A stretch of 64,000 bases of DNA from contig JAIXMF010000010.1 in NCBI GenBank assembly GCA_025201365.1, forward strand, positions 372,001 through 436,000, in the 5' to 3' direction. Position numbers and translations under genes: made by a program. The notes beneath the pieces are model-generated. The model was given only the letters and a program-made list of their open reading frames with translations, searched no databases and was not told where the DNA came from. The stretch comes from Syncephalis plumigaleata (lineage: Eukaryota; Zoopagomycota; Zoopagomycetes; Zoopagales; Piptocephalidaceae). Shown in pieces: positions 3,756 to 59,146 of the stretch (the stretch's first letter is position 1; each line of letters starts with the position of its first letter).

Positions 3756-5161
3756 TTATTTCCATACTATAACATTTCCATCAAATGACGCAGATAGTAA
3801 GCCGACTTCTTTGGGATGAGTGGCTACGAATGATACGACATTGTTGTGTCCCTTTAATCTTCTTACTTCGTTACCCTAGTCATCATCGAGATTAGTGCAA
3901 CAGGGCGCTAACTCGATATTACTACACTACCTCAAGTAATCCCAAAATAGAATGGATCCGTCTTCCGACCCACTTATCACGTGCGTGTCCATTGGCGTGA
4001 GACAGCTGCGTAAACGATACTCCTTGTGTTGATGCCCGGAATACCTGGATTGCCAGCAATGATCAATACCCGTTCTATCTTGTAGTAATAGCTAAGCGGA
4101 CAACACTTACTCGTTAAGTAGACCTCCATTCTCCTTGTCCAACAGGCGTATCCGTGCATCTAACGTGCCCACCAATACACAATTGCCATCACTCGTAAAG
4201 TTGACCGAAGTAACCGGATCTAGAATGGTTGTGTACCATTTCAGTACTCGTCTTTGCCCTCTACTCAATCCGATAAACAAAATAACTCACGTCCAATCTC
4301 ATCCGTGTTAAGCTGTCCCATTCGCAAGTCGTAGCAGCGCACCTTGCCATCCACGGAACCAGTCAATACCTCATGACTAGATACTACCAAGGAGGCAACG
4401 CTATCTTTGGCATCTTTTAGTATCTGAATAGGTGCACGCGATGCAGCACTATATGAAATCAGCATAGCACAGTATCATGGTAATAAGCAGCAAGTTAGAC
4501 GATATAAGCAATGCCAATGGATACGTTCAACTTACCGGAGATCCCATGCTCGTACTGTGGCATCATAAGAACCTATAGATATATATATGACGATAATTGG
4601 TATGATAAACGAGTAAACACGCAAGTTATAATTCTATGCTTTACCACTAAATAGCACCGTGGCATCGGCATTAAATCCGACGCAATTCACTCGCTAATAC
4701 ATCCAGTTAATTGGATCATATTTGCATATTTATAAGGAGAAATACTAATATCTTACCTGAAGATGGCCGGAATATCGACGAGTTACGTGACCAGCTGTGA
4801 CATCCCATAGAAACACGGTACGATCACCACCACATGAAGCGAAACGACTATTGTCATAGGAGCTGAACAATACGCTGACATTAATAGACTGATCTAACGC
4901 AAACTACTGCTACTGCTACTGCTACTGCTAATACTGTTACTATTACCTGCAAATATCATATACTTCCCAGCCATGAGCACTATACTTTTGAATGAATTTA
5001 CCACTTGCTGGATTCCATAGTCGAACGTCTTTGTCTTGTCCACCCGTCAAACAATACGCGCCGTCTACTGTATAACGAGCGACATTAACCGCACCTCTAT
5101 GTCCTTGTAGTGTATGTAGCTTTTGATTAGGTAAGGGTAGAGGAGCTTGACTCGAAGACAT
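3756..5161 (-). CDS. WD40-repeat protein, WDR83/MORG1 type
   Basis: Complement of join(3756..3875, 3931..4044, 4111..4219, 4291..4448, 4536..4572, 4645..4693, 4757..4862, 4947..5161), about 302 residues like animal WDR83 (315). WDR83 is a seven-bladed propeller that acts as a MAPK-module scaffold and is found in spliceosomes. Seen: exon 1 MSSSQAPLPLPNQKLHTLQG then DGAYCLTGGQDKDVRLWNP; later SYDNSRFASCGGDRTVFLWD, VASLVVSSHEVLTGSVDGKV, RCYDLRMGQL (diagnostic for WDR83), VTSVNFTSDGNCVLVGTLDA, GHQHKEYRLRSCL and a final blade ending SASFDGNVIVWK. All junctions join in frame except the last, where one base is lacking at the acceptor near 3875 (total coding length is one short of a multiple of three). 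I read this as a sequence error. Confidence 0.9.
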
Positions 5162-51998: not shown

Positions 51999-52419
51999 GA
52001 TAAACAAGGTATAACTGAGATAAGCTAACAAGTGGCAAGGCTACAAGTAGAATAGAGTAGAAAAGAAGAAGAAGAAGAGGGTAAGAGGGTAAGAGGAAGG
52101 TGACGTGTCATCGTCATGGTTACTATTTATTGAAACACAAATGACGATAACACCACTCTGAGGAATGCTATTTGATTGGTGATGTTCCAGGGTTAACATC
52201 TACTAGGGTTGTAAAAGCTTGAAGTGAAATGGCCGTCCTAAAGAAGATTCTAGAAGGGTTACACGTGCTGTGTCCATACAAGTAAAAGTGGCTCACACCG
52301 GCGTGTTACACGTTGTCAAAGGAGAGAAAGTAATTGTACTGCGTAGAAGTAATCTAATATCACCGAATAAATGTTTATTCATACTATAGCATAAAATAAA
52401 TAAATAACATGTTATTGTA
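51999..52419. other. Upstream region of PPIL1
   Basis: 420 bp, AG-rich near the cyclophilin start (52060-52100), nothing else recognisable. It ends at the TA flank of the inverted-repeat element. Confidence 0.5.
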
Positions 52420-53018
52420 CAGGCTTTTTCCATCCAATTTGCGCAGTTAGCCTTCTGTTTTTACGAATAAATAATAGTTAACACTTACAAGTATTACTAC
52501 TCCGTATTTCGGGTGCCATTGTCGTTTGGGCGACAGTGTGGCGGTTGACGATACAACCTGGTTAATTTGTAATTTGTTGTTTGGATCCCTCTTGATCTTG
52601 ATCTTCATTTAGTGAATATTTTGCGGACGTACTAGGCTCAGGAGGAGAAACGGCACCTCGATGGAATTGTGTTGGAACACCCTTGTCCTTACGAACACTG
52701 CGAATAATCTGAATGAAGTTCAGACATGCTGCCATATCCCGATTCCATACATGATAATCAATAGTTACTTGTAAGTGCATGACATGGCAATATCCAACTA
52801 TACTTGTACACTTGTATCATCTACCTTATAGAATTGATGATGATAGTTATCGCTATCAATAAAGGATCCATTACTAATACTGAATTGTTATTATTATTAT
52901 CATGCTATATCAATTGGCATATCTATGCTGATAATAATGTTAACAATTGTGTTAATCTATCTATTAGTAAACTGCAAAAGTTAAAGGATAAATGCGCAAA
53001 TTGGATGGAAAAACACTG
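52420..53018 (-). mobile_element. TA-flanked terminal-inverted-repeat element carrying a Fanzor-like fragment
   Basis: A 599-bp element bounded by terminal inverted repeats of about 26 bp (left begins CAGGCTTTTTCCATCCAATT; the right end is its reverse complement with two mismatches) and flanked on both sides by TA. This is the signature of Tc1/mariner-type DNA transposons. The interior has no transposase but contains a minus-strand frame (52780-52562) resembling the RuvC-III end of Fanzor/OrfB proteins. A 210-bp sibling with the same ends lies at 58937-59146. It is therefore probably an internally deleted derivative of a larger element that carried a Fanzor gene. The DNA between the TIR and the frame is AT-rich with no other recognisable domain. 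Confidence 0.75.
52562..52780 (-). pseudogene. Fanzor/TnpB-like (OrfB) C-terminal remnant
   Basis: 72 codons. The key segment HVWNRDMAACLNFIQIIRSV followed by RKDKGVPTQFHRG resembles the third RuvC motif (NRDxxA, catalytic Asp) and the tail of eukaryotic TnpB relatives, which are RNA-guided nucleases often carried by eukaryotic transposons. The zinc-ribbon cysteines and RuvC motifs I and II are absent, so only the extreme C-terminus survives. The tail PPEPSTSAKYSLNEDQDQEG is disordered. The apparent ATG (MHLQVTIDYH) is internal to the old gene. The call rests on one motif recognised by eye; a profile search against Fanzor and OrfB_Zn_ribbon families would settle it. Confidence 0.55.
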
Positions 53019-53071
53019 TATATTTTATTGGTTCAACGTAACACATATATAAAGAAATTTTTACGATGAGA

Positions 53072-54296
53072 TTATGACGAGTGAAATGATAAACCTTGCC
53101 AGGTATGAATAAGAATGTCTACCAGCTGCGGTTCACGTACAGCCACGCGTACAAAGGTGGGGTGGTGGTAGCCTGGACGACCACTGCGTACGGGAACACC
53201 GGCAGCACGGGCCCCATCCACCATGGCATCGGCCAGTTCCTCGCTGCCTACGTCGAGCCAGACCCACGAGAGGAATTCACGACCACATACCCGCCATTCG
53301 GCACCACCCAATTGTCGATTTAGCTGCTTTAGCTTATCAACAAGCGAGGCACGCCACTCGGTCGTCACTTGCCAGGTCTTCTCGAGGTAGGCCGTGTCTT
53401 GACAAACGTTATTTAGAAATGCCAATGCCATACCATTGACCGACCATGGTACTTGGTAGCTTTTCAGGCGTTGACAATCATCCGCGGTAGGACACACCAC
53501 CGAGCCTAGGCGCAGTCCAGTGCATGACCATAGTTTAGTCCACGAGTGGATGATGTAGAGTCGGATACCACGACGCTCGTAAAGTTCCGCGGCAAAGGCG
53601 GGCACCGAGGTGAGCGAGTCTTCTCGGAACTTGGGACCATACCACGGTTGCATCGACTCGTCCACCATGACGATGGCTTGATCAGCGGCGTTGGCGGAGA
53701 TCCACGTTTGCACCTCGTCTAGCGACATGTAATCACCGGTAGGATTGCATGGATTCACTAGACATAACATATCGGCAGGTGTCGCACTGTCGTCGGAGGC
53801 GAGAATCTTGCAACCAGCGTTCACCGCAGCTCTTTCGTATTCTTTATATTGTGCATCCCAAGGACCGGAACGCCAACGACTATTCGGTGCAGCAGTGCGT
53901 GCAATGAGATCAATTAGCTCGCTCGCACCATTACCGATGATGAGTCGGCTATGACCTTCCGGTACTTCTCCCGCTGTGTTCGCGTTAGAAGCAGAAGCAG
54001 AAGCAGAAGAAGGCCATAAAAAGTGGGCCAATGCAGTTTTGGCGGGTTCTTGATCAGCCGGCGGATAATGATGACAATGATTGAGCTAGTATTTGCAATG
54101 ATAATCGTTATATATCAATCTATATCAATCTACGTACGCCATAACTTACTGCTTCATGAGCTGCAGCGAGAGCGGGTTTTGGCGTTCCTAATGCATTGGT
54201 AGTGACGCTGAAATCCTCTTTAAAATTAGCTAGAAACTTCCAGTCTTGACCGCCATGAAATTGTTGCGTTTTCGTATCCCATACTGTTGGTAGCAT
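53072..54296 (-). CDS. PLP-dependent aminotransferase (HisC/CobD-like, class I/II)
   Basis: Complement of join(53072..54085, 54150..54296), 386 residues, in frame. Fold-type I PLP enzyme. Start ATG at 54296, MLPTVWDTKTQQFHGGQDWK. Seen: HCHHYPPADQEPAKTALAHF, the cofactor-site IIGNGASELIDLIA, LVNPCNPTGDYMSLDEV (NPTG), VMVDESMQPW (Asp for the pyridine nitrogen), IIHSWTKLWSCTGLRLGSVV with the Schiff-base Lys in S-x-T-K, and a C-terminal RPGYHHPTFVRVAV with the carboxylate-binding Arg. It resembles histidinol-phosphate aminotransferase and threonine-phosphate decarboxylase, but the substrate is not clear; canonical fungal HIS5 features are not obvious. A Ser/Ala microrepeat near residue 80 (SSASASASNANT) is an odd insertion. 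Confidence 0.85.
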
Positions 54297-58936: not shown

Positions 58937-59146
58937 CAGGCTTTTTCCATCCAATTTGCGCAATTAGCCTTTTGTTTTTACGAATAAATAATAGTTATCA
59001 TTAACATCTCCCTCAACTGCTAGGGCAATGATAACTACTCAATAATAATAGTAATGCAATAATGGTGTTAACAATTGTGTAAATCTATTTATTAATAAAC
59101 AGCAAACGTTAAAGGATAAATGCGCAAATTGGATGGAAAAACCCTG
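58937..59146. mobile_element. MITE, 210 bp, sibling of the 52.4 kb element
   Basis: TA-flanked, with the same terminal inverted repeats as 52420-53018 (left CAGGCTTTTTCCATCCAATT; right TTGGATGGAAAAACCCTG). Subterminal sequence is also shared on both sides (TTTTTACGAATAAATAATAG and the stretch ending GTTAAAGGATAAATGCGC). The interior, including the Fanzor-like frame, is missing. It lies upstream of the dehydrogenase gene. Confidence 0.85.

Follow-up and report, generated by a model that had tools for sequence, protein, structure and literature searches.

A 599-bp Fanzor-derived element of Syncephalis plumigaleata and its family of ghost elements with Tc1/mariner-type ends and candidate guide-RNA termini

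The window analyzed here, a stretch of 64,000 nucleotides from the fungus Syncephalis plumigaleata (contig JAIXMF010000010.1, positions 372,001 to 436,000), harbors a short transposable element whose sequence derives from a Fanzor gene, and a second, smaller element with the same ends. Their features are as follows, in coordinates of the window.

52418..52419, unstranded: TA target-site duplication, left copy (sequence)
53019..53020, unstranded: TA target-site duplication, right copy (sequence)
52420..53018, minus strand: ghost Fanzor element, internally deleted, non-autonomous, 599 bp; Fanzor reads leftward
52425..52454, plus strand: terminal inverted repeat on the Fanzor 3' side, 30 bp, 93% against the other end
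52984..53013, minus strand: terminal inverted repeat on the Fanzor 5' side, 30 bp, 93% against the other end
52420..52759, minus strand: 3'-end segment of the full-length element (last exon with RuvC III, 3' UTR, 3' terminus), 97.4% to the L032 element, positions 1-340
52766..53018, minus strand: 5'-end segment of the full-length element (leader, without a long frame), 92.9% to the L032 element, positions 3939-4188
52562..52780, minus strand: chimeric 72-codon frame, with an ATG from the 5' segment in frame with the last Fanzor exon (sequence comparison)
52715..52747, minus strand: RuvC III motif WNRDMAACLNF, with identical residues in full-length Fanzors
52420..52488, minus strand: candidate guide-RNA scaffold (7-bp and 5-bp stems), kept from full-length elements (position and fold only)
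52398..52417, minus strand: predicted guide, the flank beyond the TA at the 3' end, with an assumed length of 20 nt (after the published Fanzor loci described in part of PMC10432273)
53019..53021, minus strand: ATA at the 5' end, candidate Fanzor target-adjacent motif including the TA duplication (sequence and genome-wide enrichment)
58937..59146, minus strand: second ghost, 210 bp, sharing the ends and TA flanks and without Fanzor coding sequence (end pattern and sequence)

A sequence-only reading of this DNA had described a TA-flanked element of 599 bp, and both its coordinates (52420-53018) and its TA flanks (52418-52419 and 53019-53020) prove exact to the base. The 26-bp inverted ends of that description are real but slightly longer than proposed, spanning 30 bp at 93% match (element positions 6-35 against 565-594), and the outermost bases beyond them are asymmetric (CAGGC versus CAGTG). 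The described 72-codon frame with WNRDMAACLNF lies on the minus strand, and the interpretation of this motif as RuvC III of Fanzor is upheld by identical residues in full-length Fanzors. RuvC III is, however, the only such motif in the 599-bp copy; RuvC I, RuvC II and the zinc ribbon are absent and, hence, the copy does not encode a Fanzor protein itself. A search of positions 52300-53150 against Rfam gave no match at E values up to 1. An aminotransferase-like open frame of 337 codons (53072-54085, minus strand) directly adjoins the element, and the 210-bp ghost lies 5.9 kb away; by eye, the right half of the latter is closer to the 1.1-kb class C ghosts described below than to those of class A.

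Full-length relatives of the element are present elsewhere in the genome. A search with the 84-residue stop-to-stop version of the short frame yielded 150 scored matches among 581 candidates, some of which cover only residues 19-84 and lie within longer frames. In 15 (L029-L043) of the 20 loci fetched, the match sits in a longer element, and 11 of these 15 loci present both ends, at no more than 3 mismatches, 3984-4232 bp apart. These 11 elements correspond to 10 distinct sites, since L030 and L040 have common flanks, while L031, L034, L041 and L043 show no recognizable second end and were used in 3' comparisons only. The L032 element contains a single gene, on the strand of the short frame, in which a 637-residue frame is accompanied by a final exon that contains WNRD, and its protein matches the solved structures of Parasitella parasitica Fanzor1 (E 3.5e-105) and Spizellomyces Fanzor1 (SpuFz1, 3.2e-33). 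The family displays the RuvC I aspartate (VDPGRR), TSKCCPxC with a second cysteine pair, and WNRD. In the part of Bao and Jurka (2013, PMC3627910) used here, the Fanzor1 motif is given as D-X(125,275)-[TS][TS]-X-X-C4 zinc finger-X(5,50)-RD. Among nine S. plumigaleata proteins (the Mucor protein P0010 being left out of these counts), the gap from D to TS is 175-201 in eight and, at 121, just short in P0009; TSKCCPxC and WNRD occur in all nine, and the second cysteine pair, by eye, in eight, P0002 being spliced differently there. This agreement with the motif, together with the relationship to characterized Fanzor1 proteins, places the full-length parent, as far as sequence can tell, in Fanzor1.

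The proposal that this genome has, or had, full-length Fanzor elements is thus borne out, since the search suggested for it, with ends and frame, recovered relatives of 4.0-4.2 kb that carry RuvC I, RuvC II, a zinc ribbon and RuvC III between the ends of this family. The profile search suggested alongside it fared less well. A Pfam scan of the short frames of the 599-bp element returned nothing relevant, PF07282 gave nothing at threshold over the whole genome, and two full-length S. plumigaleata proteins reached E values of 0.007 and 0.011, below the cut-off. PF07282 by itself would therefore have missed this family, and the Fanzor identity of the short frame is drawn entirely from family comparison. 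A search with the 637-residue frame found 82 stretches, grouped by eye into about 41 loci, and at 15 loci a single unbroken long frame covers nearly all 637 residues (last exons are outside this count), from which Fanzor appears to be "alive" in S. plumigaleata. In L034 (2965-4527), about 1.5 kb, possibly an insertion or an enlarged intron, separates the long Fanzor frame from the last-exon frame; the two adjoin in L032. The closest Fanzors outside Syncephalis are those of Mucorales (Mucor and Rhizopus; P0010, P0012-P0015 and P0017), with 36-42% identity, which appears too diverged for a recent transfer. Mucorales are parasitized by Syncephalis.

Comparison with the L032 element also reveals how the short copy arose. 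The 599-bp copy joins positions 1-340 of that element (97.4%) to positions 3939-4188 (92.9%), and one identical junction is crossed by the translated frames of 24 of 24 ghosts. This set leaves out L002 and L008 (partners of L001 and L007), L036b (with a duplicated exon), repeat fetches of the same places and L025, which lacks one end. At the DNA level the junction was seen in 21 of 25 ghosts, three having been missed by the search string and one carrying the duplicated exon, and the filler found there recurs in the leader of L035, alone among 10 full-length copies. These alignments show, within the reach of sequence comparison, that a 4.2-kb Fanzor element lost about 3.6 kb internally in one deletion, which fused its 5' leader to its last exon, and that the product was amplified alongside other deletion derivatives with the same ends. 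The earlier reading of an internally deleted copy is accordingly sustained, in the form of two ends of a full-length element joined by a single internal deletion; most simply, this event involved a few bases of microhomology and amplification came afterwards.

The resulting family is large. In a DNA search of the genome with the element, 40 of 986 candidates were scored and all 40 match over most of its length, with 100% identity for the element itself and 84-96% for the others; at least 40 copies hence exist among the matches listed. A 21-base end piece has 949 genome matches at up to 2 mismatches, against none for the reversed pattern, and these would amount to about 475 elements, provided that all ends are paired. 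Besides class A, the ghosts comprise further size classes with the ends of class A: class B (about 540-580 bp), with a different 3' half; class C (about 1.1 kb, three fetched), in which the frame is broken at WNR on our reading; and class D (210-226 bp, three seen), which is devoid of coding sequence and includes two ghosts of 225-226 bp that retain just 61-66 bases of the 3' end. TA is found at both ends in 9 of 11 full-length copies and in 29 of 33 ghosts (27 distinct flank pairs); as boundaries were set, L035, L042, L011, L016, L018 and L046 lack it. The outermost bases of the two ends are unequal in most copies. In a ghost at L036 (6546-7201, protein P0030), the block WNRDMAACLNFIQII occurs twice in a frame of 105 residues, as though the ghost had received another Fanzor last exon. 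The term "remnant" previously applied to the window element thus holds insofar as the copy is deleted, but the element is more aptly seen as belonging to a large, amplified family of ghosts, between which and the full-length Fanzor elements sequence is exchanged.

Evidence for this exchange comes from the two halves of the elements. Three 3' UTR types, assigned from the alignment, are found in full-length copies, and the same three in ghosts with the common junction. In a tree of 38 3' halves, ghosts and full-length copies are intermixed within types i, ii and iii, and the types plus the B group require three changes, the minimum, as compared with a mean of 20.1 for shuffled labels. In the 5' tree, built from 34 halves, these labels require 18 changes, as compared with 18.5 on shuffling; with 21 of 31 inner branches open, the resolution of this tree is poor and its scatter may partly reflect weak signal. 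In addition, B ghosts end in PSKRS..., resembling the Fanzor subfamily of P0007, P0011 and P0016. As we read them, these comparisons show reshuffling of the 3' module (last exon, 3' UTR and 3' terminus) with that of full-length Fanzor elements, the 3' and 5' halves having been reassorted.

Occupied sites themselves show signs of turnover. Flanks present on longer contigs recur on several short ones, which are either alleles or duplicated segments, and in all three contig pairs compared the elements differ by 2.8-5.2% and the flanks by 0.1-0.8%. The window element and its counterpart L002 differ at 19 of 596 bases, all in columns 270-553, as opposed to 2 of 1398 flanking bases (p 1e-8); the corresponding values are 31/592 and 11/1393 for L007 and L008, and 120/4221 and 8/1397 for the full-length pair L030 and L040. 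When the joined flanks of 14 ghosts were searched against the genome, three sites had uninterrupted counterparts (L044, 95%; L013, 92%; L047, 88% with 13 extra bases) and seven had filled ones, while L046 was equivocal and L006, L022 and L045 matched only themselves. The gaps of the filled pairs measure 602 and 225 bp at the L020 site (A and D), 597 and about 548 bp at L004 (A and B, with a B frame located there), 598 and about 533 bp at L015, 559 and 578 bp at L017, 617 and 602 bp at L023, 574 and 577 bp at L027, and 559 and 550 bp at L028. The two elements of the L020 site are 93% alike in their common 5' part, the best value among the copies compared, and one of them may have undergone deletion in place, at TAACTAT. 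We regard the differences at paired sites as indications that elements at occupied sites have been converted or re-copied from one another. Such turnover would result if Fanzor made guided cuts in empty alleles, and equally from transposon-gap repair with template switching.

The earlier reading had also labeled the element Tc1/mariner-like. The TA duplication and the inverted ends support this label, as do DDE_3 transposases located between related ends of other elements, but the Fanzor elements contain no transposase: no transposase-like frame was detected in L032, and no DDE_3 match falls within the coordinates of the fetched Fanzor elements. The DDE_3 profile identifies 31 matching stretches in the genome; PF03184 (DDE_1) is silent in this genome and in the control genomes alike. 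A 20-base end found beside one DDE_3 match, AACTGGTTGGAAAAACCCTG, occurs at 171 places in the genome and is identical to either ghost end at 17 of 20 positions; inward of it lies GCAAAAGTTAAAGG, which also occurs on the 5' side of the ghost. Among the 100 of 171 places listed, inverted copies of AACTGGTTGGAAAAACCCTG bracket five of five copies of a 383-residue DDE_3 frame, in elements of about 4.5 kb, and four copies of a degenerate DDE_3 frame, in elements of about 2.6 kb; the other DDE_3 matches have no such pair among those 100 places. Judging from this relatedness, the DDE_3 elements are a likely source of transposase. A different DDE_3 element, with a 380-residue frame, lies inside a Fanzor gene (G000 C1, about 572041-573669; L058 and L059), separating the N-terminal part from the remainder, and has identical inverted repeats of at least 184 bp. 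Its frame is present in four copies, with a fifth of 376 residues at equal score.

The ghosts retain the portion of the Fanzor element in which published guide RNAs lie. At the Fanzor loci described in part of Saito et al. (2023, PMC10432273), the guide RNA is located at the gene end, across the 3' inverted repeat, and the guide corresponds to flanking DNA. The last 69 bases of the ghost can be folded into a 7-bp stem (GUAAGUG/UAUUUAU) and a 5-bp stem (AGGCU/AGCCU) beside the predicted guide; according to part of Xu et al. (2024, PMC11423790), the first stem measures 7 bp in each of the three Fanzor1 structures, and the second 4 bp in PpFz1. In 33 distinct rows, 95% of the cells of the candidate stems pair, as against 30-51% with the partner slid. 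No covariation of the two stems was detected among these rows, pairing being equal to that of the shuffled control and no pair being altered on both sides, so that a guide-RNA structure is compatible with the sequence rather than demonstrated by it. Diversity among ghosts is 0.117 in the inner scaffold region and 0.076 in the leader, which speaks against additional conservation of the former, and 0.046 and 0.035 in the 3' and 5' termini, respectively, the 3' terminus being more conserved than the leader. The ghosts would, we infer, guide Fanzor.

The insertion sites bear a signal of their own. We compiled 5'-side flanks from the first 100 of 196 exact end matches, and 3'-side flanks from 34 of 203. 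On the 5' side, the base before TA (-3) is A in 63 of 100 sites, against 32% before TA in the window (p 2e-10), and in 52 of 83 distinct six-mers (p 9e-9); on the 3' side, the mirror T after TA occurs in 10 of 34 flanks and in 47 of 203 genome-wide, a frequency (23%) below the 32% background (p 0.007). The two sides differ with p 3e-11. If the preference reflected a palindromic choice by the transposase, T after TA would be expected equally often on the 3' side; the asymmetry is instead what a Fanzor target motif predicts, and the target motif found by experiment for the Parasitella Fanzor1 is ATN (in the part of PMC11423790 considered). By family, A at -3 is found in 11 of 12 A, 19 of 22 C, 5 of 7 D, 6 of 15 B and 0 of 2 full-length sites (36 of the 100 sites, 20 of them with A, have no family and six are doubtful). 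A and C together differ from B (p 0.001) although the matched 28 bases of the 5' end are identical. Among fetched elements with clean TA ends, A precedes TA in 7 of 9 full-length copies, of which L030 and L040 occupy one site, and at 18 of 27 ghost sites. At the 37 sites without A at -3, position -4 is A in 30 and T in seven, and never C or G. A is present at -3 or -4 in 93 of 100 5'-side sites; the -4 cases perhaps point to an alternative register of the motif or to a further Fanzor specificity. A conserved motif before the 5' end, as in published ghost elements, is hence present here too, although weaker than a fixed motif.

Several of these observations admit other explanations. The leader ATG is in frame with the last exon as a result of the deletion join, and the chimeric frame thus created might be thought a selected small protein, for instance a Fanzor regulator or decoy derived from the RuvC III exon. 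The frame is indeed open from ATG through WNxD in all 24 ghosts, a sample biased to good protein matches, and 15 of the 18 hits in the database are to small proteins that bear the names of S. plumigaleata gene models, records that reflect gene prediction. We deem such a protein very improbable, as the L008 frame has a stop at codon 2 and, of the best 40 DNA copies chosen irrespective of frame, 28 are unbroken, five contain a stop and seven lack a match among the 150 listed, which is near the 30% of frames broken in a simulation of 3% neutral divergence by substitutions alone. Likewise, private changes per 100 sites per copy are not significantly rarer in the exon (0.63) than in the leader (0.98; p 0.14), 8 of 14 exon changes alter the residue, and conversion from full-length genes can re-supply intact frames. 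Stop counts, exon versus leader rates and residue changes all fail to support selection; the mini-frame is probably not a gene, decays about like neutral sequence and would represent a by-product.

The insertion-site signal, in turn, could stem from the transposase, if the unequal ends (CAGTG and CAGGC) oriented insertion on an asymmetric target in the absence of any Fanzor action. The inequality of the ends in most copies and the setting of target and TA duplication by the transposase lend some weight to this idea, yet families A, C and B differ in preference despite 28 identical 5'-end bases (at small sample sizes) and the motif is in accord with the one determined for Parasitella Fanzor1, a related protein, and we consider it improbable. 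A broader objection is that these are ordinary MITEs, deletion derivatives of a Fanzor-carrying Tc1-like element spread by transposase alone, in which the Fanzor exon and 3' end are inert. The anatomy by itself requires nothing further, shorter ghosts devoid of the exon have spread as well, and the decay of the mini-frame, the lack of stem covariation and the ordinary diversity of the inner scaffold region are all in keeping with it; ordinary transposon-gap repair with template switching could likewise yield mosaics without Fanzor. An asymmetric ATA, and a family difference at one and the same 5' end, are nonetheless unexpected from a palindrome-preferring transposase, and ghost guide RNAs of Spizellomyces are functional with SpuFz1 in human cells, as reported in part of PMC10432273. 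We therefore rate inert MITEs as an unlikely explanation, albeit one to be taken seriously.

It seems reasonable to postulate, and we think it fairly probable, that the 599-bp element is a non-autonomous, amplified ghost of a Fanzor1 transposon with Tc1/mariner-type ends, the 3' end of which serves as a guide locus in Fanzor-driven re-copying. It has the ends of a Fanzor element, lacks the complete gene and keeps the 3' end, as the comparisons above indicate, and thereby fits the published description of Fanzor ghosts. In the proposed mechanism, a Tc1-like DDE_3 transposase from elements with related ends would move the ghost in trans; the retained 3' end would act as a guide-RNA locus with the adjacent flank as guide; Fanzor from intact copies, guided by the ghost, would cut the element-free allele beside ATA; and repair after the cut would copy the element back, with template switching giving rise to mosaics and further deletions. 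Many short copies look as if they sat at sites chosen or kept with Fanzor help. More tentatively, as a possibility we put somewhat short of even, the hundreds of ghosts would constitute a repertoire of guide RNAs at dispersed sites, which a dozen or more intact Fanzors would serve in trans. Each guide would then record its own insertion site, cutting of empty alleles at ATA would keep and re-copy elements while occupants are continually replaced or recombined, and the motif would shift with the 3' module (B versus A and C).

The role of Fanzors for their transposons in nature was left open in the 2023 discussion (PMC10432273, in the part considered), and Syncephalis offers a setting in which to address it: numerous intact Fanzor frames occur together with hundreds of ghosts, Tc1-like transposases lie between related ends, and paired contigs present sites that are filled, empty or swapped. 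Whether ghost-guided Fanzor re-copies elements into empty alleles can be tested there, and the prediction of an ATA signal that depends on orientation and changes between families can be checked in other genomes with Fanzors. Judged by title and the start of the abstract, no description of this element is found among the papers listed from the open-license literature on Fanzor, on TnpB and MITEs and on Syncephalis transposable elements; no paper in that literature links Syncephalis to Fanzor, and Syncephalis is not among the fungi in part of the species table of Bao and Jurka (PMC3627910). As far as that literature goes, the host phylum, the traced origin with its chimeric frame, the common 3' modules, the orientation-dependent ATA with its family difference, the filled, empty and swapped counterparts and the candidate transposases are new.

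Tc1/mariner MITEs are internal deletion derivatives with terminal inverted repeats and a TA duplication that are mobilized in trans. The Syncephalis family differs from them in that the parent carries an RNA-guided nuclease and a guide locus is expected in the retained end. TnpB acting as a gene drive in plasmids is the subject of PMC11870625, as far as the part considered indicates. Like PUl-4, as described in part of Bao and Jurka (2013, PMC3627910), the full-length elements have Fanzor as their sole gene, Mariner-like ends, a TA duplication and no internal transposase; unlike it, they have hundreds of deleted derivatives. The closest solved relative of the full-length protein, by sequence, is PpFz1 (Xu et al. 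2024, PMC11423790, in part), whose ATN agrees with ATA and whose guide RNA also has a 7-bp first stem, whereas the host here belongs to the Zoopagomycota and the predicted guide RNA has a second stem of 5 bp instead of 4 bp. The ghost Spu-1 of S. punctatus, as reported in part of Saito et al. (2023, PMC10432273), is about 550 nt long, with inverted repeats and without a Fanzor gene, and has 134 loci against 42 Fanzor loci. The Syncephalis ghosts resemble it in being short, in lacking the Fanzor gene and outnumbering Fanzor loci, in keeping the 3' guide end and in the motif before the 5' end. In contrast to Spu-1, between the ends of which the same part of that text reports no transposase, Syncephalis has transposases with related ends, and its ghosts have the RuvC III exon preserved within a chimeric frame, trace to one deletion and form several size families, with 3' modules common to several full-length types.
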